Positions 5,094 to 18,959 of a DNA stretch of 64,000 nt are shown piece after piece. The DNA is taken from NCBI RefSeq assembly GCF_004152935.1, contig NZ_SETE01000002.1, positions 1 through 64,000 of the forward strand. The letters run 5' to 3'. Source of the DNA: Brumimicrobium glaciale. GTDB taxonomy: Bacteria; Bacteroidota; Bacteroidia; Flavobacteriales_D; Crocinitomicaceae. The position numbers and the translations under genes were made by a program. Each line of letters begins with the position of its first letter. Positions within the stretch are counted from its first letter, which is position 1. The notes beneath the pieces are model-generated. The model had not been told where the DNA came from, did no database searches, and saw only the letters and a program-made list of their open reading frames with translations.

Positions 5094-5157
5094 ATGGATG
5101 AAAAAGTTTTGATTTCTCTATGTCAGTTTTAAAGCAATGTTTTCCATAAGTATAATA

Positions 5158-5243
5158 CCCAAATCCTTGCGCAATCTTTCCACGCAGTTAATAAATTCCT
5201 CTTCCTTGAAAAGGATAAGCTTTTACGCTAGGAGGAAAGGGAA
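5158..5243 (-). pseudogene. decayed 3'-end fragment of a DnaE-type polymerase gene (copy 1)
   Basis: Read on the minus strand this gives FPPSVKAYPFQGRGIY, a stop, then LRGKIAQGFGYY. This matches the pattern of the C-terminal OB-fold of DnaE2-like pol III alpha subunits (compare YPIIGMGIYGCFGKI and FGF in the intact gene at 6906-9863). An 86-bp near-copy lies at 6703-6788, with about nine mismatches by eye and the same in-frame TAA. The two copies bracket the T9SS gene at 5324-6586. No ORF survives. The alternative is a dispersed repeat without coding origin, but the protein-level match makes that less likely. Confidence 0.65.
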
Positions 5244-5266
5244 ATATTTTCAGCGGTTATTCCTAA

Positions 5267-5299
5267 TAAAAAAGAGACCAACTATTTAGCTGATCTCCT
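5267..5299 (-). terminator. terminator after the T9SS gene
   Basis: On the minus strand GAGATCA (from 5297-5291) pairs with TGGTCTC (from 5280-5274) with one wobble, followed by six T residues. It sits about 25 bp after the stop codon at 5324. Confidence 0.7.
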
Positions 5300-5323
5300 T
5301 CATTCTTATTTATAGATTTCTAT

Positions 5324-6586
5324 TTATTTGCGAACAACTAATTTGTTCGTTTTGATAATTTCATCTCTTTTATTTCGAATTGTATAAAAGTATACTCCAC
5401 TATTTAATTTACTAATATCAACTTGCTTCGTTCCGTTTGAAAAATTTTGTTTTACAAGCTCTTGCCCAGTAACAGAAATGATCGAGACGGAACCATTTTC
5501 TAGACCATCAATTTTGAAATTAACAAAATTGATTGCTGGGTTAGGATAGATACTGATTTCTTTATATTGATCAGACAAAGACAATGGTGAAGTTAAAGTA
5601 ATTAGATTTGATGCTTCATAAACATTCATATAGCCACTTGCGCCTTCTACTAAAATATAAACTTTCATTTCAACATTCTCAACAATTGGAGTGGGTTCTA
5701 TAATAAATGTTTTTGGATCGGTTCTCCAGTATACCCCAGCTGTTGTGAAATTATATGTTTGATCCGAGCCCGTTGTTGTAGTTTGATTTCCGCTATTCAA
5801 AATGAATCCTGCTCCGTTTCCTAAATCTGCAGGAGTAATACCCGACATTGCGATAACATAATAATTAGAGACTTTTGTTTCATCAGGGATATCAAAAGAT
5901 ACTTCTAAATCAGATCCATCATGATTATCGTTAACGTCACTGGCAATAACATTGGTCACATTAGGAGCGTCTTGTAAAATTATTCCTTCAACTATATTGT
6001 CTACCGCTAACCAAGAACCTGGTGCAATTGTAGAATTAACTGAAGCAAGAACTTGACCTTCGCTGCTAGCTATATTAATCTTATAACTAGCAACATTGAA
6101 AGGGTCATAACTCATGTCTACCGTTACTGTTGCTAATGTCGTTTGAGAACCTCCTAAATATACCTTTCCACTGCCAACTCTTGAACCGCTATTATCGAAT
6201 GCATCGATCAAAATTACTGCTGTATCATTTGGTTTGATATCGTACGTTATATCTAATTCAAAGTTTAAAAACTTGTCTGTAGAGTTGAAACTTTGATAAG
6301 CAACTGAGCCTCTAATTCCATTTGGTAAATTTACAGGATCATTTGTATTCGCTAAATTAAATGATGTCAGTTTTATATAGCTATTCCCTTCTGTTGCTCC
6401 TGTTGTTTCTTCTTTTGCTGGAATAATTGTGTTACCGTTTTCATCTGTAATGTCACCTACACCATTAAAGTTTAACCAATCATCTGGTTCTCCAGTAGTC
6501 CAGTTTTCAAAGCTTGGATTGATTACTTGCGCAGTTATGCTTGTTGATAACACGGATATTAATCCTAAAAGGTAAAAGATTTTCAT
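5324..6586 (-). CDS. T9SS-sorted secreted protein
   Basis: This 420-residue protein carries a signal peptide (1-19, ending STSITAQ), then VINPSFENWTTGEPDDW, the start of a PCMD-like/carbohydrate-binding beta-sandwich (about 20-195). A second, fibronectin-like region spans about 205-320. A complete Por-type sorting domain (IYPNPAINFVNFKI to LVVRK) ends the protein, with the expected basic tail. It should be secreted by the type IX system and perhaps attached to the surface. No catalytic motif is visible, so its substrate is unknown. The gene is flanked on both sides by 86-bp direct repeats derived from a polymerase 3' end, so it may have arrived in, or been trapped by, a local duplication. Confidence 0.8.
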   Translation of the reverse strand: MKIFYLLGLISVLSTSITAQVINPSFENWTTGEPDDWLNFNGVGDITDENGNTIIPAKEETTGATEGNSYIKLTSFNLANTNDPVNLPNGIRGSVAYQSFNSTDKFLNFELDITYDIKPNDTAVILIDAFDNSGSRVGSGKVYLGGSQTTLATVTVDMSYDPFNVASYKINIASSEGQVLASVNSTIAPGSWLAVDNIVEGIILQDAPNVTNVIASDVNDNHDGSDLEVSFDIPDETKVSNYYVIAMSGITPADLGNGAGFILNSGNQTTTTGSDQTYNFTTAGVYWRTDPKTFIIEPTPIVENVEMKVYILVEGASGYMNVYEASNLITLTSPLSLSDQYKEISIYPNPAINFVNFKIDGLENGSVSIISVTGQELVKQNFSNGTKQVDISKLNSGVYFYTIRNKRDEIIKTNKLVVRK

Positions 6587-6905
6587 AATAGTTTGTTTTA
6601 ATTCTTCTTAAATACACTTATTTTTTCTTAAGCTTAGTTATTGCAACCTCCTGTCATCCATTCCTTTCAATTTCACTCGCTGCATCATCCCCAAACTGGA
6701 ATCCCAAATCCTTGCGCAACCTTTCCACGCAGTTAATAAATTCCTCTTTCTAGAAAAGGATAGACTTTAATGCTTGGAGGAAAGTGAACAGTTTCAAAAA
6801 AAATTCCTCCATAATCTTGGAAGGTTCCAAAATTTATAATCTCTCCGCGTTTTGTTCTGGTGGGTTTTATGGCCACTAAATATCCTTAATTTGTAGTGAG
6901 TTATT
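6587..6905. other. intergenic gap holding the polymerase remnant
   Basis: This 319-bp gap between the T9SS gene and the polymerase gene holds the decayed polymerase tail (6691-6885), including the second copy of the 86-bp repeat (6703-6788). Nothing else is recognised. Confidence 0.6.
6691..6885 (-). pseudogene. decayed 3'-end fragment of a DnaE-type polymerase gene (copy 2)
   Basis: On the minus strand the frame reads GYLVAIKPTRTKRGE, then NFGTFQDYGG, then FFETVHFPPSIKVYPF, LERGIY, a stop, and LRGKVAQGFG. This is the C-terminal OB-fold of a DnaE2-like polymerase: compare GKLVTTRFNKTSQGK, STFIDQDGNYFDAVHF and GIYGCFGKITERFGF in the intact gene. It lies immediately downstream of that gene, in the same orientation, but is clearly a different lineage of the family and not a recent duplicate. 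It is interrupted by stops and has no start. It is interpreted as what remains of a former polymerase allele at this locus. Confidence 0.75.
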
Positions 6906-9863
6906 TCATAACCTTGGATCACCTGCGATACTCATTTTCTTAGATTGGATTACATTCATACTGCAAAATCCAAAACGTTCTGTGATTTTGCCAAAACAAC
7001 CATAAATCCCCATTCCGATAATAGGATATTGATGAACTACGTTGGTAAAATGAACTGCATCAAAGTAATTTCCATCTTGATCAATAAAAGTACTTAATCG
7101 CATTAATTTTCCTTGTGATGTTTTATTGAAACGGGTAGTCACTAACTTGCCATATAAAAGCACATTCTTATTTATATGCAGATTCATTTCACTGGCTTTT
7201 GCATGAGGTTTAAATTCCTCTGTGACCAAAGAGAAATAATCATGGATGGTAAAGTCTAACAACTCCATTTCATCGTAAACATCTTCTAACCAATGTGAAT
7301 TCAATTTCGGAATGGTGAAGTTTTGATGCTGCACACGGAATAATTGTACTTGTTCTTGAACTTGACGCTGTTTTGTAGCATTTAATCTAAAAGTCGCTTT
7401 CCAAAGGAGTTCTGTTTTCGGTTTTAAGATAAAACGAAAAGCATTAATGCGAATTAAAATGGTTATTTGCTCAATAGATATAGTAACACGGTCCATGAAG
7501 TCTTCCAAAGACTTAAATTTTCCAAACAGTTGTCTCTCAGTTAAAATCCGTTGAATGACCAATTGTTCTAGACTCTTTAAGTATCCAAAACCTAAGTAAA
7601 TAGTTTTACCGATGACTCTATTTACATGTTCACTTGTATTAATGCAAGGCAATTCAATTTTGGCACCACGCATTTTTGCTTCATGAATATAATGTTCAAC
7701 TGAATAAAATCCACCGCCATTATTTAATACAGCTACCATAAATTCAATTGGATAATAGCATTTTAAAAATAAACTTTGATAGCTTTCTACTGCATAAGAT
7801 GCCGAGTGTCCTTTAGCAAATGCATAGCCTGCAAAACTTTTAATCTGATTCCAAATTTCAAAAATCAGCTTGTCTTCATGTCCTTTTTTTCTGCTGTTAG
7901 AAATGAATTTATCCTCCACAGCTTTAAATTCAGAAGCCGAACGTGATTTACCACTCATTCCTCTTCGGAGTACATCTGCTTCACCTAAAGTTAAATCTGC
8001 GAATTGATTGGCTACTTTCATAACGTCTTCCTGATAGACCATTACACCATAAGTTTCAGGCATAATTCCCAATAAAATAGGATTGGCTTCTTTTCTTTTT
8101 TCAGGATATCTGTGCCTTTTTATGAATTCATCTTTCATTCCCGAACCAGAAACACCTGGTCTAACAATAGAACTCGCAGCGACTAAACCAATATAATTTT
8201 CTGTTTTTAGTTTTTGCATTAATCCGCGCATTGCTGGAGATTCTACGTAATACGCTCCAATTGCTCCACCCGTTTTTAAAAGATTATTTATTTTTTCATC
8301 TTTTTTAAAACGTTCAATATCTGTGATGTCAATTTCAGGTGCATTTGGATTGTTTTCCTTAATTATCTCTAAAGCTTCTTTAATTTTTGCCAAACCACGT
8401 TGACCTAAAATGTCAAATTTGAAAATACCCACATCATCAGCAATATTCATGTCAAATTGAACAGTAGGAAAATCTTTTGGAGGAAGACTAGTGGCTGAAT
8501 AATAATGAATTGACTTGTCTAAAATCAGAATTCCTGCAGAATGTACACTCACATAATTAGGAAAACCTTCAATTAACTTTCCGTATTTTAAAACAAGTTT
8601 AGAAACGTCATCTATTTGGCCTTCTGCAACGCCTTTGCTTAATTTATCGATTTCTTCTTTAGGCAAGCCAAACACTTTTCCCAATTCCCTTACTACAGCT
8701 CTATATTTGAAAGTAACGTAAGTTGCCATTAATGCTACATTATCAAAGCGATCAAAAATATATTGGGTAACGGTATTTCTATCTTTCCATGAAAAATCAA
8801 TATCAAAGTCGGGTGGGGAAGCTCTAAAAGGATTAATGAATCGCTCGAAATACAAATCTAGTTCTACGGGATCTACATCTGTAATTCCCATAATGTAAGC
8901 GACTATACTATTTGCACCGCTTCCTCGACCTACATGGAAAAAGTTATTGCTTTTCGCATATTGAATGATATCATAATTGATTAAAAAAAAGGAAACGAAT
9001 TTTAATTCGATTATCACTTTTAGTTCTTTTTGAAGTCGATCAAGTACTTTTTGAGTCGGATTTTTATAGCGTTCGTAGATTTTTTGATCGCATAAATCCA
9101 ATAGCATTGCGCAATCTTCTTCAAAACTATTCAGGTATAAGTTTTTGTTTTGATTTTCACGTTCATCGTTAAATCCAAAATTGACGTCACACTGTTTGAG
9201 TAGTGCTTCAGTATTTGAAATAATAGTTGGAAACTCTTTAAAGTACTCCTTTAATTCTGATTTAGCGTGCATTTTATCGGTTTGAAAGCATTCTTCTGAA
9301 GTGCACAGCTTACTCAATAAAGTATTGTTGTCAATTGCTCTCAGCAGTCTATGTGCATTAAAATCTTTTTTATCTCTAATCGTAACTTGTTGCTGAATGA
9401 CTAATTTGTCTTCAAATTTTCTCACATAAGAAAACCGAAGTTTATTTATTTCAGCAATAGAAATCCCAATAAATTCATCCTCCGAAAAAGTAGTGAGATT
9501 GAGTTCTAGAACTTTCTCGAAAGGATAAATGATAAAAACATCTTCTAATTTTTTGGGTTTTTCTGGAATAGTAGTTTTAGACTCTAAAAAAGAAGACAAG
9601 TAGCGATTTATGTTTTCAAAGCCAGTATTGCTTTTTGCAAGTGCCACAAATTGCTGATCGTTACCGTTCCTGAAATCGACACCAATAACAGGTTTTATAT
9701 TCACCTTTTTTGCCTCCTGTATGAAATTCATACAAGCAGACGTATTGTTGATATCTGTTAACGCAATTGAATCAATATCATTATCGATTGCAAGCTGCAA
9801 CAATTCAGTTTCGGAGAATGTTCCGTAACGCAAAGAATAATATGTATGACAATTGATATACAT
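6906..9863 (-). CDS. DNA polymerase III alpha subunit, DnaE2-like (error-prone type)
   Basis: This 985-residue C-family polymerase is shorter than replicative DnaE. The N-terminal PHP domain (about 1-200) is degenerate: the usual HxH start reads NCH and the usual TDH reads TDI, so metal-dependent proofreading is unlikely. The palm has PPDFDIDFSW (about 350) and KFDILG (about 481), which keep the catalytic aspartates. A clamp-binding-like QVQLF lies near 840 and an OB-fold fills the last 90 residues. It starts 4 bp after dinB ends and is divergent from a LexA-like repressor, so it forms the Bacteroidota SOS mutagenesis cassette, analogous to imuB-dnaE2. It should carry out translesion synthesis with DinB under repressor control. 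Remnants of another polymerase tail lie downstream. Confidence 0.88.
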   Translation of the reverse strand: MYINCHTYYSLRYGTFSETELLQLAIDNDIDSIALTDINNTSACMNFIQEAKKVNIKPVIGVDFRNGNDQQFVALAKSNTGFENINRYLSSFLESKTTIPEKPKKLEDVFIIYPFEKVLELNLTTFSEDEFIGISIAEINKLRFSYVRKFEDKLVIQQQVTIRDKKDFNAHRLLRAIDNNTLLSKLCTSEECFQTDKMHAKSELKEYFKEFPTIISNTEALLKQCDVNFGFNDERENQNKNLYLNSFEEDCAMLLDLCDQKIYERYKNPTQKVLDRLQKELKVIIELKFVSFFLINYDIIQYAKSNNFFHVGRGSGANSIVAYIMGITDVDPVELDLYFERFINPFRASPPDFDIDFSWKDRNTVTQYIFDRFDNVALMATYVTFKYRAVVRELGKVFGLPKEEIDKLSKGVAEGQIDDVSKLVLKYGKLIEGFPNYVSVHSAGILILDKSIHYYSATSLPPKDFPTVQFDMNIADDVGIFKFDILGQRGLAKIKEALEIIKENNPNAPEIDITDIERFKKDEKINNLLKTGGAIGAYYVESPAMRGLMQKLKTENYIGLVAASSIVRPGVSGSGMKDEFIKRHRYPEKRKEANPILLGIMPETYGVMVYQEDVMKVANQFADLTLGEADVLRRGMSGKSRSASEFKAVEDKFISNSRKKGHEDKLIFEIWNQIKSFAGYAFAKGHSASYAVESYQSLFLKCYYPIEFMVAVLNNGGGFYSVEHYIHEAKMRGAKIELPCINTSEHVNRVIGKTIYLGFGYLKSLEQLVIQRILTERQLFGKFKSLEDFMDRVTISIEQITILIRINAFRFILKPKTELLWKATFRLNATKQRQVQEQVQLFRVQHQNFTIPKLNSHWLEDVYDEMELLDFTIHDYFSLVTEEFKPHAKASEMNLHINKNVLLYGKLVTTRFNKTSQGKLMRLSTFIDQDGNYFDAVHFTNVVHQYPIIGMGIYGCFGKITERFGFCSMNVIQSKKMSIAGDPRL

Positions 9864-9867
9864 GCCA

Positions 9868-11082
9868 TTATTGTTTTCTATGTGCTAAAACTAAAGGTGG
9901 CTCTCCATTAAATGGATTATTAAATCTCCCTATAGATTTCGCACCCATGGAAGATGCTCTCATGATACTTAATTCACCATATTTATCGCGAACAGCATCC
10001 ATAGCATTGTAAAGTTTGAGCATTTGTTCCGTATCATCAAAGAGATTAATTTGATAATTTCCGCTTACAATATCAGAAACCTTAACACCTACTAATCGAA
10101 TGAGTAATCTTCTTTGATATAGGTTTTTAAACAGTTCTAGAACCTTAGGAATGATAATATGGTCTGCGCTTGTGTATGGAATTTTTATTTGCTTATTATA
10201 GGTGTTGAAATCCGAATATCTGATTTTTACACTAATTGTTCCTGCTAGTTTATTCCCTTTTCTCAATTGATAAGCTAAATTTTCAGCCATTGCAAAAATG
10301 GTTGTTTTTAGTTTTTCCATATCAATCGTATCTTTACTGTAAGTTCTTTCGGTGGATAAAGATTTACGTTCATGAAAAGCAATAATTGGTTGAATATCAA
10401 TTCCATTTGCTCGTTTCCAAATCGTTTTTCCATTCTTACCTAAAACACTAATCATCATTTCTAAAGGCATTTCTTGAATTACCTTTACTTTATCTACACC
10501 AAGATTTCTTAAAATATTATAGGTTTTTGTACCCACAGAAGGTATTTTCTTAATAGATAAAGGCGCTAAGAAGTCTTTTTCAAAACCAGCATTGATGAGT
10601 AATTGATTGTTTGGTTTTGCTTCACCAGTGGCTACTTTAGAAACAATTTTATTTTGAGACATCCCAAAAGAAATAGGCAATCCACTTTCTTTGATAATTT
10701 GCTGACGTAATTCAGAAGCATATTTATAGCTTCCAAAATAGGTATCCATTCCAGAAAGGTCGGCGTAAAATTCATCAATACTTGCTTTTTCAAAAATGGG
10801 TACTTTATCTTTGATGATATCTGTAACTATATTGGAGTATTTAGAATAGGTACTTGTATTTCCTCGAATGATAATTGCCTCTGGACATAATCTTCTAGCG
10901 ATTTTCATTGACATACCAGAATGCACACCGAATCTTCTTGTTTCATAACTGCAAGCTGCAACAACACCTCTGTCGCCCGTTCCGCCAACCAATAGTGGTT
11001 TTTTCTGTAAACGACTATCAATTAAGCGTTCGCAGGAAACAAAAAAAGTGTCTAAATCGAGATGTAAAATATTCTTATTCAT
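9868..11082 (-). CDS. dinB: DNA polymerase IV (Y-family)
   Basis: This 404-residue Y-family polymerase has its catalytic residues in place: HLDLDTFFVSCER near the N-terminus (D9, D11) and SIDEFYADL at about 103. This distinguishes it from the inactive ImuB proteins of proteobacterial cassettes. A little-finger domain follows (about 235-340), then the clamp-binding pentapeptide QINLF at about 345 and a basic C-terminal tail. It performs translesion synthesis on damaged DNA. It is the first gene of the dinB-dnaE pair and lies 52 bp from the divergent S24 repressor, with a probable operator between them. The start MNKNILHLDLD matches the family N-terminus. Confidence 0.9.
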   Translation of the reverse strand: MNKNILHLDLDTFFVSCERLIDSRLQKKPLLVGGTGDRGVVAACSYETRRFGVHSGMSMKIARRLCPEAIIIRGNTSTYSKYSNIVTDIIKDKVPIFEKASIDEFYADLSGMDTYFGSYKYASELRQQIIKESGLPISFGMSQNKIVSKVATGEAKPNNQLLINAGFEKDFLAPLSIKKIPSVGTKTYNILRNLGVDKVKVIQEMPLEMMISVLGKNGKTIWKRANGIDIQPIIAFHERKSLSTERTYSKDTIDMEKLKTTIFAMAENLAYQLRKGNKLAGTISVKIRYSDFNTYNKQIKIPYTSADHIIIPKVLELFKNLYQRRLLIRLVGVKVSDIVSGNYQINLFDDTEQMLKLYNAMDAVRDKYGELSIMRASSMGAKSIGRFNNPFNGEPPLVLAHRKQ

Positions 11083-11094
11083 AGTGTAAAACTA

Positions 11095-11131
11095 GCTACA
11101 AATACGTACATTCGTTGCTCAATATTGTAGC
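11095..11131. promoter_or_regulatory. probable operator of the SOS-type repressor
   Basis: GCTACAA (11095-11101) and TTGTAGC (11125-11131) form a perfect 7-bp inverted repeat separated by 23 bp. A TACGTA palindrome lies at 11103-11108, inside the 52-bp divergent intergenic region between dinB and the repressor gene. The position fits autoregulation plus control of dinB-dnaE. The pairing of arms is seen directly; binding is inferred. Confidence 0.55.
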
Positions 11132-11134
11132 ATT

Positions 11135-11908
11135 ATGAGTCATTTATCAAAAAACATAAAACATTTAAGACGGTTAAAGAAGCTAACACAAGAAGTTTTG
11201 GCTGAGGAATTGTCTGTAACAAGATCGAGAATAAGTTCTTATGAAGAAAACAGATCTTCACCAACCATTGAGTTTTTGATTGATTTTTCGACTTATTTTA
11301 AAATTCCAATCGATATTATCATTAAAAATGATTTAACAAAAGCGAAAGATGTTTCATTTATCGAAGTGGGAAATAAAAGAGTTTTGTTTCCAATTACTGT
11401 AGATAGTGATAATGAGAATCTGATTGAAATTGTGTCTTCGAAAACATCTGCAGGATATTTACTAGGATATGATGACCCTGAATATATTGAGCAATTGGAG
11501 AAGATAAAATTGCCGTTTTTACCCACAGGAAAACACAGGGCTTTTCCAATAAAGGGAGATTCCATGTTGCCTATGAAAGATGGTTCCTATGTAGTGGCAG
11601 AATTTGTGGAAGACATCAAAGCAGCGAAAAGTGGACTGTCTTATATTGTAGTCACAAAAGACGATGGAATGACGTATAAAAGATTGGAAAATTTGGTAGA
11701 AGAGAAGCAAACGTTTCTATTGAAGCCTGATAATTCAAGTTACCCACCTTATGAAGTGCCTGTTTCAGAAGTTTTGGAATTGTGGAAATTTACGTGTAGT
11801 ATCAACACACAAGAATATGAGGAGCATGAGTTGAAATTAAGTAGTGTAATTCAGATGTTTAAAGGGTTGGGAGTGGAGTTGGAGGGGTTGAAGAAGTGTT
11901 TGGTTTGA
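11135..11908 (+). CDS. LexA-like XRE/S24 autocleaving repressor
   Basis: The 257-residue protein has an N-terminal XRE helix-turn-helix (about 5-60, with QEVLAEELSVTRSRISSYE). A linker with the cleavage-type dipeptide in TSAGYLLGY (about 104-112) follows, then an S24 peptidase domain with nucleophile S143 in GDSMLP and base K182 in TYKRL. The architecture is that of a RecA-stimulated self-cleaving repressor such as LexA or CI. Divergent placement against dinB-dnaE is the usual Bacteroidota mutagenesis cassette arrangement. After DNA damage it should cleave itself and release the polymerase pair. The ATG is only 4 bp after the operator-like repeat and lacks a Shine-Dalgarno sequence. A 121-bp copy of its 3' end lies at 14585-14705. 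Confidence 0.88.
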   Translation: MSHLSKNIKHLRRLKKLTQEVLAEELSVTRSRISSYEENRSSPTIEFLIDFSTYFKIPIDIIIKNDLTKAKDVSFIEVGNKRVLFPITVDSDNENLIEIVSSKTSAGYLLGYDDPEYIEQLEKIKLPFLPTGKHRAFPIKGDSMLPMKDGSYVVAEFVEDIKAAKSGLSYIVVTKDDGMTYKRLENLVEEKQTFLLKPDNSSYPPYEVPVSEVLELWKFTCSINTQEYEEHELKLSSVIQMFKGLGVELEGLKKCLV

Positions 11909-11913
11909 TGGTT

Positions 11914-11998
11914 GCGCTTTAATGGAACGCGGATGACGCGGATGCAAGCAACGCGGATGATCTCGGTTTTTTTTGCTGGTGGTGTATTCGGATATTTG
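11914..11998 (+). repeat. dispersed GCGGATGA-type repeat, copy 1
   Basis: The motif GGAACGCGGATGACGCGGAT (11924-11943) is followed by GCAAGCAACGCGGATGA. Near-identical copies occur at 14710-14805 (same strand) and, reversed, at 18841-18905. It lies just after the repressor stop codon. Elements of this sequence type are scattered in intergenic DNA of many Bacteroidota; their function is unknown. Confidence 0.7.
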
Positions 11999-12176
11999 CG
12001 GATTTGGAAAAAGAAGTTATTGCGTTTAGTTTAGTATACAATGATGCTGAAAGAGGTATTTTAAATTGAGTAATTGTAGTGGGATTGTGAAAACATCTCT
12101 TCTTTTATCGAGTAATAATCATTTATTCAGGTAGTTAGAAATAATATCTCACAGTAATCTGGGTGTTTTTTTTAGT

Positions 12177-13217
12177 TTAACAGGGGAACTTTAATTTAAA
12201 TTCCCATTCAGCATTTTGAAGTTTTTTCCTTAAGTATTCTAGATTATTGATTAAATCCTCAAAAGACGGTTTAGTCTCTTCATATATCATATCCTCTTTC
12301 ATTTTTGAATAGTCATCAGCCCACGCCTTACGCACTTGTTCAATAGGTGTAGGATTCAATGTTTTAGGATTGTGCAAGTTATAGTCTACATGTCCGACTT
12401 TTGCGTATTTGTATCTATGTGCAACGATGGTTTCATATAGTTCTTGATCATTAAATGCGCTTGCTGTAATACCTTGTTTAGACATTTGATAAATATCATA
12501 TAAATGACGACTTAGTCGATTTACTCTTATTTTTTCTTCTGGACGATGAAATTCTTCATGAAGTAAAAATAGTTTTTCTAAAAAAGTTCGCTCTGGATTT
12601 ACTGTAGGAATTTTAAAGAGATCTTCAACGAAAGGTTTGTCGGTATAAACTTCGTCTACTAGCGCACCAAATGTTTTTTCAGTAAAAGGCTCTCTTAAAG
12701 ATCTGCAACTTATTTCTATTTGAACTCTAGGTAGTATGTAATCAGAGTTAGATTCTATTACATTGGGATAATATATTTCTAAAATCCTTGGATCCTGATC
12801 ACTGTCTTGTGCTTCAATAACTTGAAATTCTAACTCATTTAACCCTTTCTCTTTAAACGCTTCTTTAAGCTCCTCAAAGAAGGTGATAGTTGTATATTTT
12901 CCTGCTTCTTTTCTTAGTTTTTTTATTTGAGATTTAGAAATATCTCCATCATAACCTTCAAAAAACTGTTTATCAATAGCTAAATCAATATCCTCAGAAA
13001 ATCGATGTATTAACTTCCAAGCTTTACTCAATGAAGTCCCACCTTTAAATACCAAATGTTTGGCAATATCCATTTTAAATATGATATCTAAAGTTCGGCT
13101 CACCCACCAGTCTTTTTCTACAGCAAATGGCGTCATGCCCTTTTCATTAGCTATCGAATTAAATATGGCCTCTTTCTCGAGATTGCTTGTATTGTAAAAT
13201 TTTATTTCACTCATCAT
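12177..13217 (-). CDS. abiEii: AbiEii-type nucleotidyltransferase toxin
   Basis: This 346-residue protein has the nucleotidyltransferase signature FKGGTSLSKAW (58-67) followed by SEDIDLAI with catalytic-type D76 and D78. It belongs to the AbiEii family, the toxin of type IV abortive infection systems, whose characterised members block growth by nucleotide transfer to tRNA. Its ATG overlaps the end of the antitoxin gene by 11 bp, so the two are translationally coupled. The pair lies between two copies of the repressor 3' end, which suggests it arrived as an insertion. The start could be either of the first two methionines (MMSEIKF). Confidence 0.88.
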   Translation of the reverse strand: MMSEIKFYNTSNLEKEAIFNSIANEKGMTPFAVEKDWWVSRTLDIIFKMDIAKHLVFKGGTSLSKAWKLIHRFSEDIDLAIDKQFFEGYDGDISKSQIKKLRKEAGKYTTITFFEELKEAFKEKGLNELEFQVIEAQDSDQDPRILEIYYPNVIESNSDYILPRVQIEISCRSLREPFTEKTFGALVDEVYTDKPFVEDLFKIPTVNPERTFLEKLFLLHEEFHRPEEKIRVNRLSRHLYDIYQMSKQGITASAFNDQELYETIVAHRYKYAKVGHVDYNLHNPKTLNPTPIEQVRKAWADDYSKMKEDMIYEETKPSFEDLINNLEYLRKKLQNAEWEFKLKFPC

Positions 13218-13809
13218 TTATTGCTTTTTTCATTATTATCTGAATCCATACTGGAGCCAAAGCTATATCGTGAAGCAAATGTTTTTGATTCTCTTTTTTT
13301 AAGAGCGTTACAATTTTTTGTTCTTCTTGCTCGCTTACTTTTCCATTTCCTATTTCTTTAAGTGCTTGAATGGCTAATCGACTTACTTTTCCTTTTGCCA
13401 TTAGGTTTTTAGGAGTAGTTTTTTTTAATTTTATAGTACGTTTTCCAATCTTTATGACCCTAGGTGACCCATCAGTAAGCAACACAATGTTTAAAGGAAT
13501 TTGTGTACTTAATCCAAGAGCATTTAATGCGTAGCTTCCTGTAGGCACAGTTCTAATTTTATCACGTTTAGCAATAGCTTCGGCAACTTCTTCTGCGGTA
13601 GGAAGAATAGGTCCAATTAATTCGCTTATTTTTGGACGGACATAAATACCATGCGCTACTCTTACAATTACTTTTTTGTCCTCTAAACGCTCTAGTGATT
13701 TTTGGACAGCCTTAGATGTGCCGTATTGCAAAAAGTCACTAGGAAACATCAGTGTGCCTGTTGGTTTGCTTTTAATTGATTTTATTATTTTATTTTCAAC
13801 GCTTTGCAT
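13207..13809 (-). CDS. abiEi: AbiEi-type antitoxin / autorepressor (DUF6088-like)
   Basis: The 200-residue protein begins with a winged helix-turn-helix (about 1-55; LMFPSDFLQYGTSKAVQKSL and HGIYVRP) and continues with a C-terminal antitoxin domain containing PTGSYALNALGLSTQIP. This arrangement matches AbiEi antitoxins, which neutralise AbiEii and repress their own promoter by binding inverted repeats. A perfect 10-bp inverted repeat lies about 20 bp upstream of the start, as that model requires. It is the first gene of the pair. With 200 residues it is at the small end for the family. Confidence 0.82.
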   Translation of the reverse strand: MQSVENKIIKSIKSKPTGTLMFPSDFLQYGTSKAVQKSLERLEDKKVIVRVAHGIYVRPKISELIGPILPTAEEVAEAIAKRDKIRTVPTGSYALNALGLSTQIPLNIVLLTDGSPRVIKIGKRTIKLKKTTPKNLMAKGKVSRLAIQALKEIGNGKVSEQEEQKIVTLLKKENQKHLLHDIALAPVWIQIIMKKAINDE

Positions 13810-13828
13810 TCGTTTAATCTATTTGCTA

Positions 13829-13857
13829 TGTCGCAAATTTAGTAAATATTTGCGACA
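13829..13857. promoter_or_regulatory. inverted-repeat operator of the abiE operon
   Basis: TGTCGCAAAT (13829-13838) and ATTTGCGACA (13848-13857) form a perfect 10-bp inverted repeat with a 9-bp spacer, 20 bp upstream of abiEi. AbiEi proteins are known to bind inverted repeats in their own promoter, so this is the natural candidate site. Confidence 0.7.
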
Positions 13858-14564
13858 AAAAAACAAAATTATTAAATAACACATCTTTAAACCTCAAGTA
13901 TTTAACAAAAATATTCTACGATAAAAACTGAAATCGAACGACCCAAAGAAATGAAAGGGCTTTTACCAAGTTCTGAAGAAATCGCTAGGAGACTGGACAA
14001 TTCTCTGGATTGATACTTTCTAAAAGACTAACTAAGTAAGAAAGTTTGGCTCTTTTAATAAAAAAATGTAAGACCTCCAAAATGGTCACACAAAAACTCT
14101 ACAATGTTGCATGACTTATGCAATATTTAGATATTTGTTGATTATCTAAAATATCTAATAATGAGTAATTTAAATTTAAAGAAGGTTTCAGCAGAATTTA
14201 AAAAGGAAATAGAATATTTTTTTTCTACTGCTGAATCAATAGTAAGAGTAGAAGCTTTTCATAGTCAAATGAAAACTAAAATGTTTAATACCTCTCAATA
14301 TGAGTTTAATGCCCTTCTTCACCGCGGATGATTGTAGACAACTTAAAGTAGATTCAGATCAAGTTGGTGAATTTCTATATCTAGCGAATTATTTGGATAA
14401 CAAGGTAGACGATTTTGAAAAAAAAGAGAGGTTAAAATAAATATTGACAGTTGATAATTAAAACCTCAGAAGTACAATATTCCATTGGAATTTCAATTCA
14501 AGAAGAAGGTTGTTTTGACAAATCTTTAGAAGATTAATAGAATTCTTTCGGAATAGATGGAATT
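13858..14564. other. gene-poor accessory DNA with broken small frames
   Basis: The stretch between abiE and the duplicated repressor tail holds no intact gene that I recognise. On the plus strand 13929-14013 reads KTEIERPKEMKGLLPSSEE and continues in frame to a stop, with no start or family match. A small broken frame (14161-14440) is listed separately. Another readable piece ends near 14539 (ISIQEEGCFDKSLED). It looks like decayed coding DNA in an insertion. Confidence 0.45.
14161..14440 (+). pseudogene. small unknown gene broken by a frameshift
   Basis: An ATG at 14161 opens 56 codons (MSNLNLKKVSAEFKKEIEYF, ending ALLHRG) and stops at 14329-14331. A second frame takes over at about 14327 and continues for 37 codons (DDCRQLKVDSDQVGEFLYLA) to a TAA at 14438-14440. 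Joined by a one-base shift they would give a roughly 93-residue helical, charged protein. I do not recognise it. It could be two unrelated chance frames, or an HGT-borne small gene that has decayed. Confidence 0.35.
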
Positions 14565-14581
14565 TGTCAGTGTTACTGACA
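14565..14581. repeat. short palindrome at the edge of the duplicated repressor tail
   Basis: TGTCAGT and ACTGACA flank a GTT centre, giving a 17-bp palindrome that ends 4 bp before the start of homology to the repressor 3' end (14585). It marks the junction of the inserted segment; a role in recombination is speculation. Confidence 0.4.
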
Positions 14582-14584
14582 AGT

Positions 14585-14705
14585 ATTTACGTGTAGTATC
14601 AACACACAAGAATATGAAGAACATGAGTTGAAATTAAGTAGTATAATTCAGATGTTTAAAGGTTTGGGGGTAGAGTTGGAGGCTTTGAAGAAGTGTTTGG
14701 TTTGA
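14585..14705 (+). pseudogene. duplicated 3' end of the LexA-like repressor gene
   Basis: These 121 bp match 11788-11908 with eight mismatches by eye. In frame they read TCSINTQEYEEHELKLSS, then IIQMFKGLGVELEALKKCLV and a stop. Of seven changed codons five are silent and two conservative (V to I, G to A). The copy therefore descends from an allele that was under selection, and is not a neutral copy. Homology continues about 100 bp past the stop into the dispersed repeat. There is no start or upstream part. Confidence 0.85.
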
Positions 14706-14709
14706 TATG

Positions 14710-14805
14710 GAGGTTGCGCTGTAATGGAACGCGGATGACACGGATGCAAGCAACGCGGATGAACGCGGATTTTTTTGCTTTTGGTGGTTTCGGATACTCG
14801 CGGGT
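14710..14805 (+). repeat. dispersed GCGGATGA-type repeat, copy 2
   Basis: Contains GGAACGCGGATGACACGGAT (14726-14745) and GCAAGCAACGCGGATGAA, in the same position relative to the repressor tail as copy 1. It is part of the same segmental duplication. Confidence 0.7.
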
Positions 14806-14813
14806 TTTAAAGC

Positions 14814-14867
14814 GATTCCCCAAAATGTAGAGACTCACGGCCGTGTGTCTCTACATTTTGGGGAATC
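14814..14867. repeat. 54-bp hairpin repeat (GTAGAGAC family)
   Basis: Two perfect 21-bp arms (14814-14834 and 14847-14867, GATTCCCCAAAATGTAGAGAC and its complement) enclose a 12-base loop that is itself centred on ACGGCCGT. Hairpins with GTAGAGAC...GTCTCTAC arms and a CG-rich palindromic loop recur across Bacteroidota and cyanobacteria. It ends 1 bp before the regulator stop codon at 14869 and may double as its terminator. Confidence 0.75.
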
Positions 14868-18771: not shown

Positions 18772-18890
18772 GGAACGCGGATGACGCGGATCTTCGAACG
18801 CTGATTTCCGCTGATTTTTTATAATTAAAAATACATTTTTTTTAAATCCGCGTATATCCGCGCTGCTTGCATCCGCGTCATCCGCGTTCC
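18772..18890. repeat. inverted pair of GCGGATGA-type repeats (copy 3)
   Basis: GGAACGCGGATGACGCGGAT (18772-18791) and its exact reverse complement (18871-18890) form 20-bp arms around about 80 bp. The right arm continues to 18905 as a reversed copy of the element seen at 11914 and 14710 (TGGCGCTGTAATGG, GCAAGCAGCGCGGAT). It lies in the gap between the polyamine operon and the helicase gene and could act as a bidirectional terminator. Confidence 0.7.
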
Positions 18891-18959
18891 ATTACAGCGC
18901 CACTATATTTATATTCACCCAACAATCCCAATCCCAACTTTAAATCGTAATTTTGCACC

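Follow-up and report, generated by a model that had tools for sequence, protein, structure and literature searches.

In the window analysed here, a stretch of 64,000 nucleotides within a Brumimicrobium genome (G000:C2:1-64000), a unit of two error-prone polymerase genes and a repressor gene is flanked on both sides by displaced 3' ends of genes. The pattern is probably the product of two separate events, the displacement in place of a native cassette by a foreign unit and the later insertion of an AbiE toxin-antitoxin pair. In the first event a Polaribacter-type dnaE2-dinB-repressor unit would have replaced the native dnaE2-dinB pair beside lrp-speA, a xenologous displacement in place, in the ancestor shared by the window species, B. 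oceani and B. mesophilum. Approximately the last 80 codons of the native dnaE2 persist as a decaying tail, which is detected in the window species only. In the second event, later and in the window lineage, the AbiE pair would have inserted just past the repressor gene, with about 220 bp now present on both sides of it, leaving the repressor gene whole and a displaced tail outside.

The live unit and the native cassette

The live unit is composed as the original prediction described it, as borne out by the list of open reading frames and by Pfam domains. It consists of a dnaE2-like gene (6906-9863, minus strand; DNA_pol3_alpha, finger, HHH_6 and PHP domains), dinB (9868-11082, minus strand; IMS and IMS_C) and a repressor gene of non-canonical LexA type (11135-11908, plus strand) with HTH_3 (48.2 bits) and Peptidase_S24 (35.8 bits) domains, both over the Pfam cut-offs. 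The name dnaE2-like is used because the product scores 441.9 bits against the curated NCBIfam DnaE2 model PRK05672, below its cut-off of 939; against the superfamily model TIGR00594 it scores 501.7 bits, above the cut-off of 434.35. Reading the translations, we find that the resident DinB retains DLD and DE residues, that acidic residues are retained in DinB and DnaE2 alike, and that the repressor has a cleavage site A106-G107 and a dyad of S143 and K182. The roles of the acidic residues, including DLD and DE of DinB, are ones we assume, and K182 is what we take to be the catalytic lysine. No imuA is present among the listed ORFs of at least 80 aa in the region. An integrase or transposase of the cassette was considered and rejected, there being no such ORF of at least 80 aa between 5158 and 14811.

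In each of the three gene trees the carriers' resident gene (dnaE2, dinB or repressor) is nested among Polaribacter-type sequences, with SH-aLRT 100 for dnaE2 (quick method), support of 100/99 for dinB and 100/97 for the repressor, whose clade includes one Tenacibaculum. The same foreign ancestry of the three live genes agrees with the earlier claim that such cassettes are exchanged as units. The resident-type unit occurs in three of the ten genus genomes, the window's included (G000, G002 and G004, that is, the window species, B. oceani and B. mesophilum), and the latter two species are also the congeners with the closest repressor. The AsmA tree unites the three carriers in one clade (100/99), with the native-type G003 as sister. 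Among the matches listed from 399 Flavobacteriales genomes, only the three carriers match the DnaE2 C-terminus at 85% or more, the remaining matches listed being at most 44%, and an order-wide search for further tails gave, among the matches listed, no Polaribacter-type cassette beyond these three. At fourfold sites the carriers differ from one another by 0.27-0.43 across the cassette, against 0.34-0.38 for speA, speB and the deoxyhypusine synthase gene; since the divergence of the cassette is comparable to that of the three core genes, it appears to have been inherited vertically since entry. Most simply, the unit entered once, on the stem leading to the three species, and has descended vertically from then on.

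At the same site, between a gene for a T9SS-secreted protein and lrp-speA, the congeners G001, G003 and G005 carry a native dnaE2, approximately 48% identical to the resident, together with its own dinB. The comparison with close relatives thus turned up the alternative cassette that the original prediction had anticipated, and its view that a sister cassette once stood at the locus and was displaced as a unit is upheld, the polymerase tail being the remnant of that cassette. Beyond the native cassette lies rimO in G001 and G005; the G003 contig begins near the T9SS gene. G008 and G009 have native-type dnaE2 in other arrangements, the G008 copy one gene from rimO, and in G006 and G007 the search of the ten genus genomes found the replicative DnaE alone. 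No repressor stands beside the native cassettes of G001, G003 and G005. Upstream of the native dinB, about 400 bp of intergenic DNA are 89% identical between G001 and G005 (reversed L160 10930-11315; L161 10043-10443).

The tail left of the live cassette (6644-6888, minus strand) is the decayed 3' end of the native dnaE2. It had been placed at 6691-6885, which was correct in kind but too short in extent: translated matches to DnaE2 C-termini, the outcome that the original prediction needed, run over 6885-6644 of the minus strand, and the DNA match reaches 6888 with G001 and 6895 with G005. Its amino acid identity is 78% to the native DnaE2 of G001 and 72% to those of G005 and G003, against 36% to the resident, and in the tree it groups with the native DnaE2s (99/98). 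A sister-cassette origin therefore holds for this tail. Its description as a distant lineage has the relationship reversed: the tail is native and the live cassette foreign. Its reading frame is interrupted by one in-frame TAA and, close to the end, by a frame change. Its differences from G001 are distributed over the three codon positions as 9, 6 and 25, compared with 7, 1 and 22 between G001 and G005; the excess at third positions, along with a higher number of second-position changes than separates the two native genes, indicates that the tail functioned as a gene over most of its past and decayed afterwards.

The 3' tail of the native dnaE2 is present in a second, incomplete copy (5142-5243, minus strand) next to a rearrangement breakpoint. 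This copy lies beyond the T9SS gene (5324-6586, minus strand), which is identified by its Por_Secre_tail domain and by gene order, and a homologue of which adjoins dnaE2 in G001, G003, G004 and G005. An 86-bp portion of this copy (5158-5243) is 89.5% identical to 6703-6788 and 83.6% identical to the native dnaE2 of G001. Because the same in-frame TAA is common to both copies, they most simply parted after the stop arose. A DNA search with 6587-6905 found no further copies in the window's own genome. Near this copy, synteny with asmA ends close to 5095 (interval 5096-5142), and at about 255.9-260 kb of C2 (L183), in the opposite sense, lie rimO, the genes around it and another T9SS gene (58%). 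This marks a rearrangement of about 250 kb at 5096-5142, most simply an inversion.

No remnant of the native dnaE2 was detected in the cassette flanks of B. oceani or B. mesophilum. To the right of the cassette no native dinB was found in any carrier, the one match (22%, E 0.004) falling in another gene, so the right edge of the displacement is unseen. The foreign unit may have replaced its counterpart in one step, or it may have been inserted at the 3' end of the native dnaE2, the rest being lost afterwards. The second route, in which the insertion displaced the tail, the native genes disappeared later and nothing was overwritten, is a serious contender, although we judge it to have somewhat less than an even chance. 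It would account for the presence of the foreign unit exactly at the native locus, and displaced dnaE2 3' ends do lie outside the cassette in Polaribacter L084, L088 and L094. However, those tails are of the resident's own type, not foreign, and none of the ten genus genomes has both cassettes side by side.

The repressor tail and the AbiE insert

Past the repressor gene the window contains a direct repeat of about 220 bp. Both copies are on the plus strand and consist of the repressor 3' end with downstream sequence, the inner at 11788-12005 and the outer, displaced one at 14585-14807. They are 88.8% identical over 223 columns (E 3e-79), and the homology extends past the stop codon; E-values of this kind rule out chance repeats as the source of the tails. 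The 121-bp repressor tail seen in the original prediction is therefore real, 113 of its 121 coding bases matching the resident 3' end and 8 differing. A Lys, a Cys and the TGA stop are private to the tail and the resident 3' end, occurring in none of the 11 other repressors compared, and because it has these changes in common with the resident repressor the tail belongs to the window lineage. Five of the seven changed codons are silent, and at both amino acid differences the tail has the residue of all 11 other repressors, the ancestral state. At three silent sites the tail is unlike both sister species and the same as Polaribacter L085, a pattern not expected if a dead copy had simply decayed, and one that counts against our preferred explanation.

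Beyond the stop codon the homology is partly that of intergenic repeats: a search of the genome with 401 bp covering the repeat stretch gave 53 matches, counting the query itself, and these represent at least two repeat families. Interspersed intergenic repeats of a cgcggat type lie at 11922-11974, 14724-14776 and 18844-18903, and a near-perfect 54-bp palindrome at 14814-14867 has copies elsewhere in the genome.

Between the two repeat copies, with no transposase gene inside, sit abiEii (12177-13217, minus strand), a type IV toxin-antitoxin nucleotidyltransferase gene (Pfam AbiEii 142 bits; PADLOC AbiEii 5.5e-98), and the abiEi antitoxin gene (13207-13809, minus strand; DUF6088). AbiEii and AbiEi homology in tandem identifies an AbiE type IV toxin-antitoxin system. 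An AbiEii homologue at E ≤ 1e-20 is present in none of the nine other congeners, two of which carry the cassette, and in 24 of the 199 other genomes of the draw, congeners included; the window genome itself has a second AbiEii at C6 (51%). Across 80 related loci, in flanks of 10 kb at most and in some cases far less, no ORF is labelled abiE at E ≤ 1e-6, a label that misses diverged AbiE such as the B. oceani pair. AbiE is thus not the travelling passenger of the cassette that it had been taken for. In B. oceani and B. mesophilum there is a single repressor 3' end and no such insert, and the sequence past the stop codon is unlike that of the window.

Several features of the surroundings were also recorded. 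B. oceani has a different, diverged AbiE pair just past the deoxyhypusine synthase gene (L043 17050-18923). An inverted repeat lies upstream of abiEi (13815-13871), and in a comparison with 11 other AbiE loci the DNA homology to 10 of them extends to about 13860, which suggests that the repeat is a candidate conserved AbiE operator. The intergenic spot that AbiE occupies in the window holds a PD-(D/E)XK gene (GxxExxY-type) in B. oceani (L043 10576-11300) and in G005 (L161 10503-11719), between direct repeats of 108 bp at 91% and of 321 columns at 85%, respectively. Between abiEi and the outer repeat (13940-14560) there are short decayed reading frames that, among the matches listed, match the window only.

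The pair may have entered by insertion with a long target duplication, or by capture from a close relative. The former is a known kind of event, for which Nobusato et al. 2000 is reportedly the reference. In the accessible part of a report on restriction-modification genes (PMC3031569), as in the window, a transposase-free insert lies between long direct repeats. The window differs from those cases in that the insert is an AbiE pair, the repeat takes in the 3' end of a gene and no true empty site is at hand.

A second wave of allelic exchange on the right side, in which a near relative's repressor end recombined in together with AbiE and the tail is the former resident allele, seems to us possible but doubtful. 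The preponderance of silent changes and the ancestral residues at both amino acid differences are as expected for a formerly working allele, but a duplication with a later-changed inner copy gives the same pattern, and the comparison comprises just 121 informative coding bases, with no donor known. The original prediction had a single event behind both tails, one older sister cassette being overwritten from the inside by the present cassette plus abiE; the orientation of both tails fits, and the left one does derive from a displaced cassette, but this is very improbable given native cassettes (G001, G003, G005) that have no adjacent repressor, private changes that link the repressor tail to the resident gene, and two congeners, B. 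oceani and B. mesophilum, that have the cassette without a close AbiEii. Both flanking tails are real, but a common origin fails: the left is native dnaE2, and the right is tied by sequence comparison to the resident repressor lineage and not to a sister cassette. Differential loss of two ancestral cassette types, with no transfer, can be given hardly any credence, for although some Bacteroidetes carry two or three DnaE2 genes (in the portion consulted of PMC3919608), the resident genes nest within Polaribacter-type clades, the type is found in three genomes among the matches listed from 399, and both types occupy one locus.

Displaced 3' ends at other cassettes

The displaced dnaE2 3' ends of Polaribacter L084, L088 and L094 lie downstream of the cassette and flank inserts. 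Three of the four tails are closest to their own genome's dnaE2, and the short outer L088 tail is about equally close to two others. In L084 an 828-aa WG-repeat gene stands between dnaE2 and the tail; in L094 there are two larger ORFs, one with ATPase matches under the Pfam cut-offs. In L145 a 163-bp repeat surrounds a 789-aa gene just past dnaE2, the matches of which are also under cut-off. AbiE apart, none of the inserts can be called a defence gene with confidence.

In 93 cassette stretches with 1106 ORFs, 7 ORFs have a displaced non-ORF 3' copy; in 63 control stretches the figure is 7 of 888, and 4 of these control copies lie downstream. The 7 of the cassette stretches divide into 4 of about 141 outer cassette genes and 3 of about 965 others, where the 141 were counted from gene lists and not from the test, and related loci are not independent. 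For the outer cassette genes, Fisher's p is 0.014 pooled, 0.005 for downstream copies only and 0.051 against the controls alone; without the window it is 0.057, and 0.028 downstream only. Under a stricter rule, set after the matches had been seen, the controls fall to 2 of 888, with p 0.002 pooled and 0.0065 within the same loci. In a subgroup picked afterwards, the Polaribacter dnaE2 genes that have 1.5 kb of flank or more, the count is 3 of 11 versus 7 of 888 controls (p 0.0002). The evidence for an insertion hotspot at cassette ends is thus modest and depends on the rule (p 0.002 to 0.057). For 5' ends there are four non-ORF rows in each set, one of those in the cassette stretches falling on a repressor ORF that is over-extended, so the data do not establish that 3' ends are favoured in general.

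We think it rather unlikely, if worth stating, that a single route underlies all of this: the outer ends of Flavobacteriales SOS cassettes would be preferred entry points for genes, with duplication of the 3' end of the outermost gene, and the same route would have landed the foreign unit on its native counterpart, placing core translesion polymerases under a foreign LexA. If true, SOS control would turn over by cassette transfer, besides duplication and divergence of the resident lexA.

Other fragments of such cassettes were seen at related loci. Decayed or partial dinB pieces lie by intact repressors (L148 9398-9940, L132 752-868, L154 9825-9941), as if the polymerase had been lost and the repressor kept. 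In L106, L116, L120, L147, L148, L151, L154, L155, L157 and L159 a repressor without nearby dnaE2-dinB is directly followed by a 442-472-aa gene with an exonuclease-like start; an exonuclease is named in the part of PMC8565304 available. In the genome of L091 an internal dnaE2 fragment (G404:C4:228208-228436; residues about 805-881, 54%) lies far from the cassette.

Predicted regulation and relation to known systems

From its family and residues, the cassette is most likely a translesion module that represses itself and is induced by damage. RecA would prompt the repressor to cleave itself, which would free both dinB-dnaE2 and the repressor gene from repression, and having its own switch would allow the cassette to function immediately in a new host. 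The divergent dinB/repressor promoter contains an inverted repeat, GCTACAA-N23-TTGTAGC (11095-11131), as a candidate operator. By eye, the pattern is exact in 8 of the 21 related loci listed, altered in 10 and not seen in 3. The exact pattern occurs once per carrier genome, at the cassette; as background there is one site elsewhere in G003, and reversed-pattern controls give one each in G000 and G001. These counts hint, weakly, at an operator function. Neither by eye nor with one TACAA/TTGTA pattern was an operator found common to the native dinB and the chromosomal S24 paralogue.

Sanchez-Osuna et al. 2021 (PMC8565304) describe the non-canonical LexA SOS repressors found in Bacteroidetes and operons in which dinB stands with a polymerase III alpha gene, and they document divergence of the operator motif. 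As far as that source was available to us, the window resembles these systems in its HTH_3 and S24 domains, its Ala-Gly and Ser-Lys residues and its adjacent error-prone polymerase genes. It differs in its promoter repeat, GCTACAA/TTGTAGC as against the published GGA-N5-TCC or CTAA-N5-TTAG, neither of which was seen by eye in the dinB/repressor interval, and in that here the unit came from another family and took the site of a native one. DnaE2 is regarded as horizontally mobile, and like the imuA-imuB-dnaE2 cassettes (PMC3919608, in the part available) the unit combines a C-family error-prone polymerase with a Y-family partner under S24 repressor control; unlike them it has no imuA, and its DinB keeps the acidic residues, ImuB being catalytically dead.

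The unit thus appears to have brought its own non-canonical LexA onto the native site, the native cassette being displaced in place. For xenologous gene displacement in situ, Omelchenko et al. 2003 is said to be the reference. The term is used in the part of PMC1274311 available, and its two marks, foreign ancestry of the resident and a native homologue in relatives, are both found here, with a foreign homologue at the native locus and the native gene gone. What is unusual is that a multi-gene unit with its own repressor is concerned and that the edge of the native gene it displaced can still be read. Both displacement in situ and long target duplication are known kinds of event, of which this case is a further instance; in open-licence full texts we found no prior report of this particular displacement.

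The case leaves a physical scar of error-prone polymerase genes and their repressor being exchanged across families at the native site, and displaced 3' ends of this kind provide a sequence signature for finding further cases. The published model for change of SOS control is duplication and divergence of lexA (PMC8565304, in the part available). Transfer of a self-repressed cassette over a native one would be a second, testable route to such a change.
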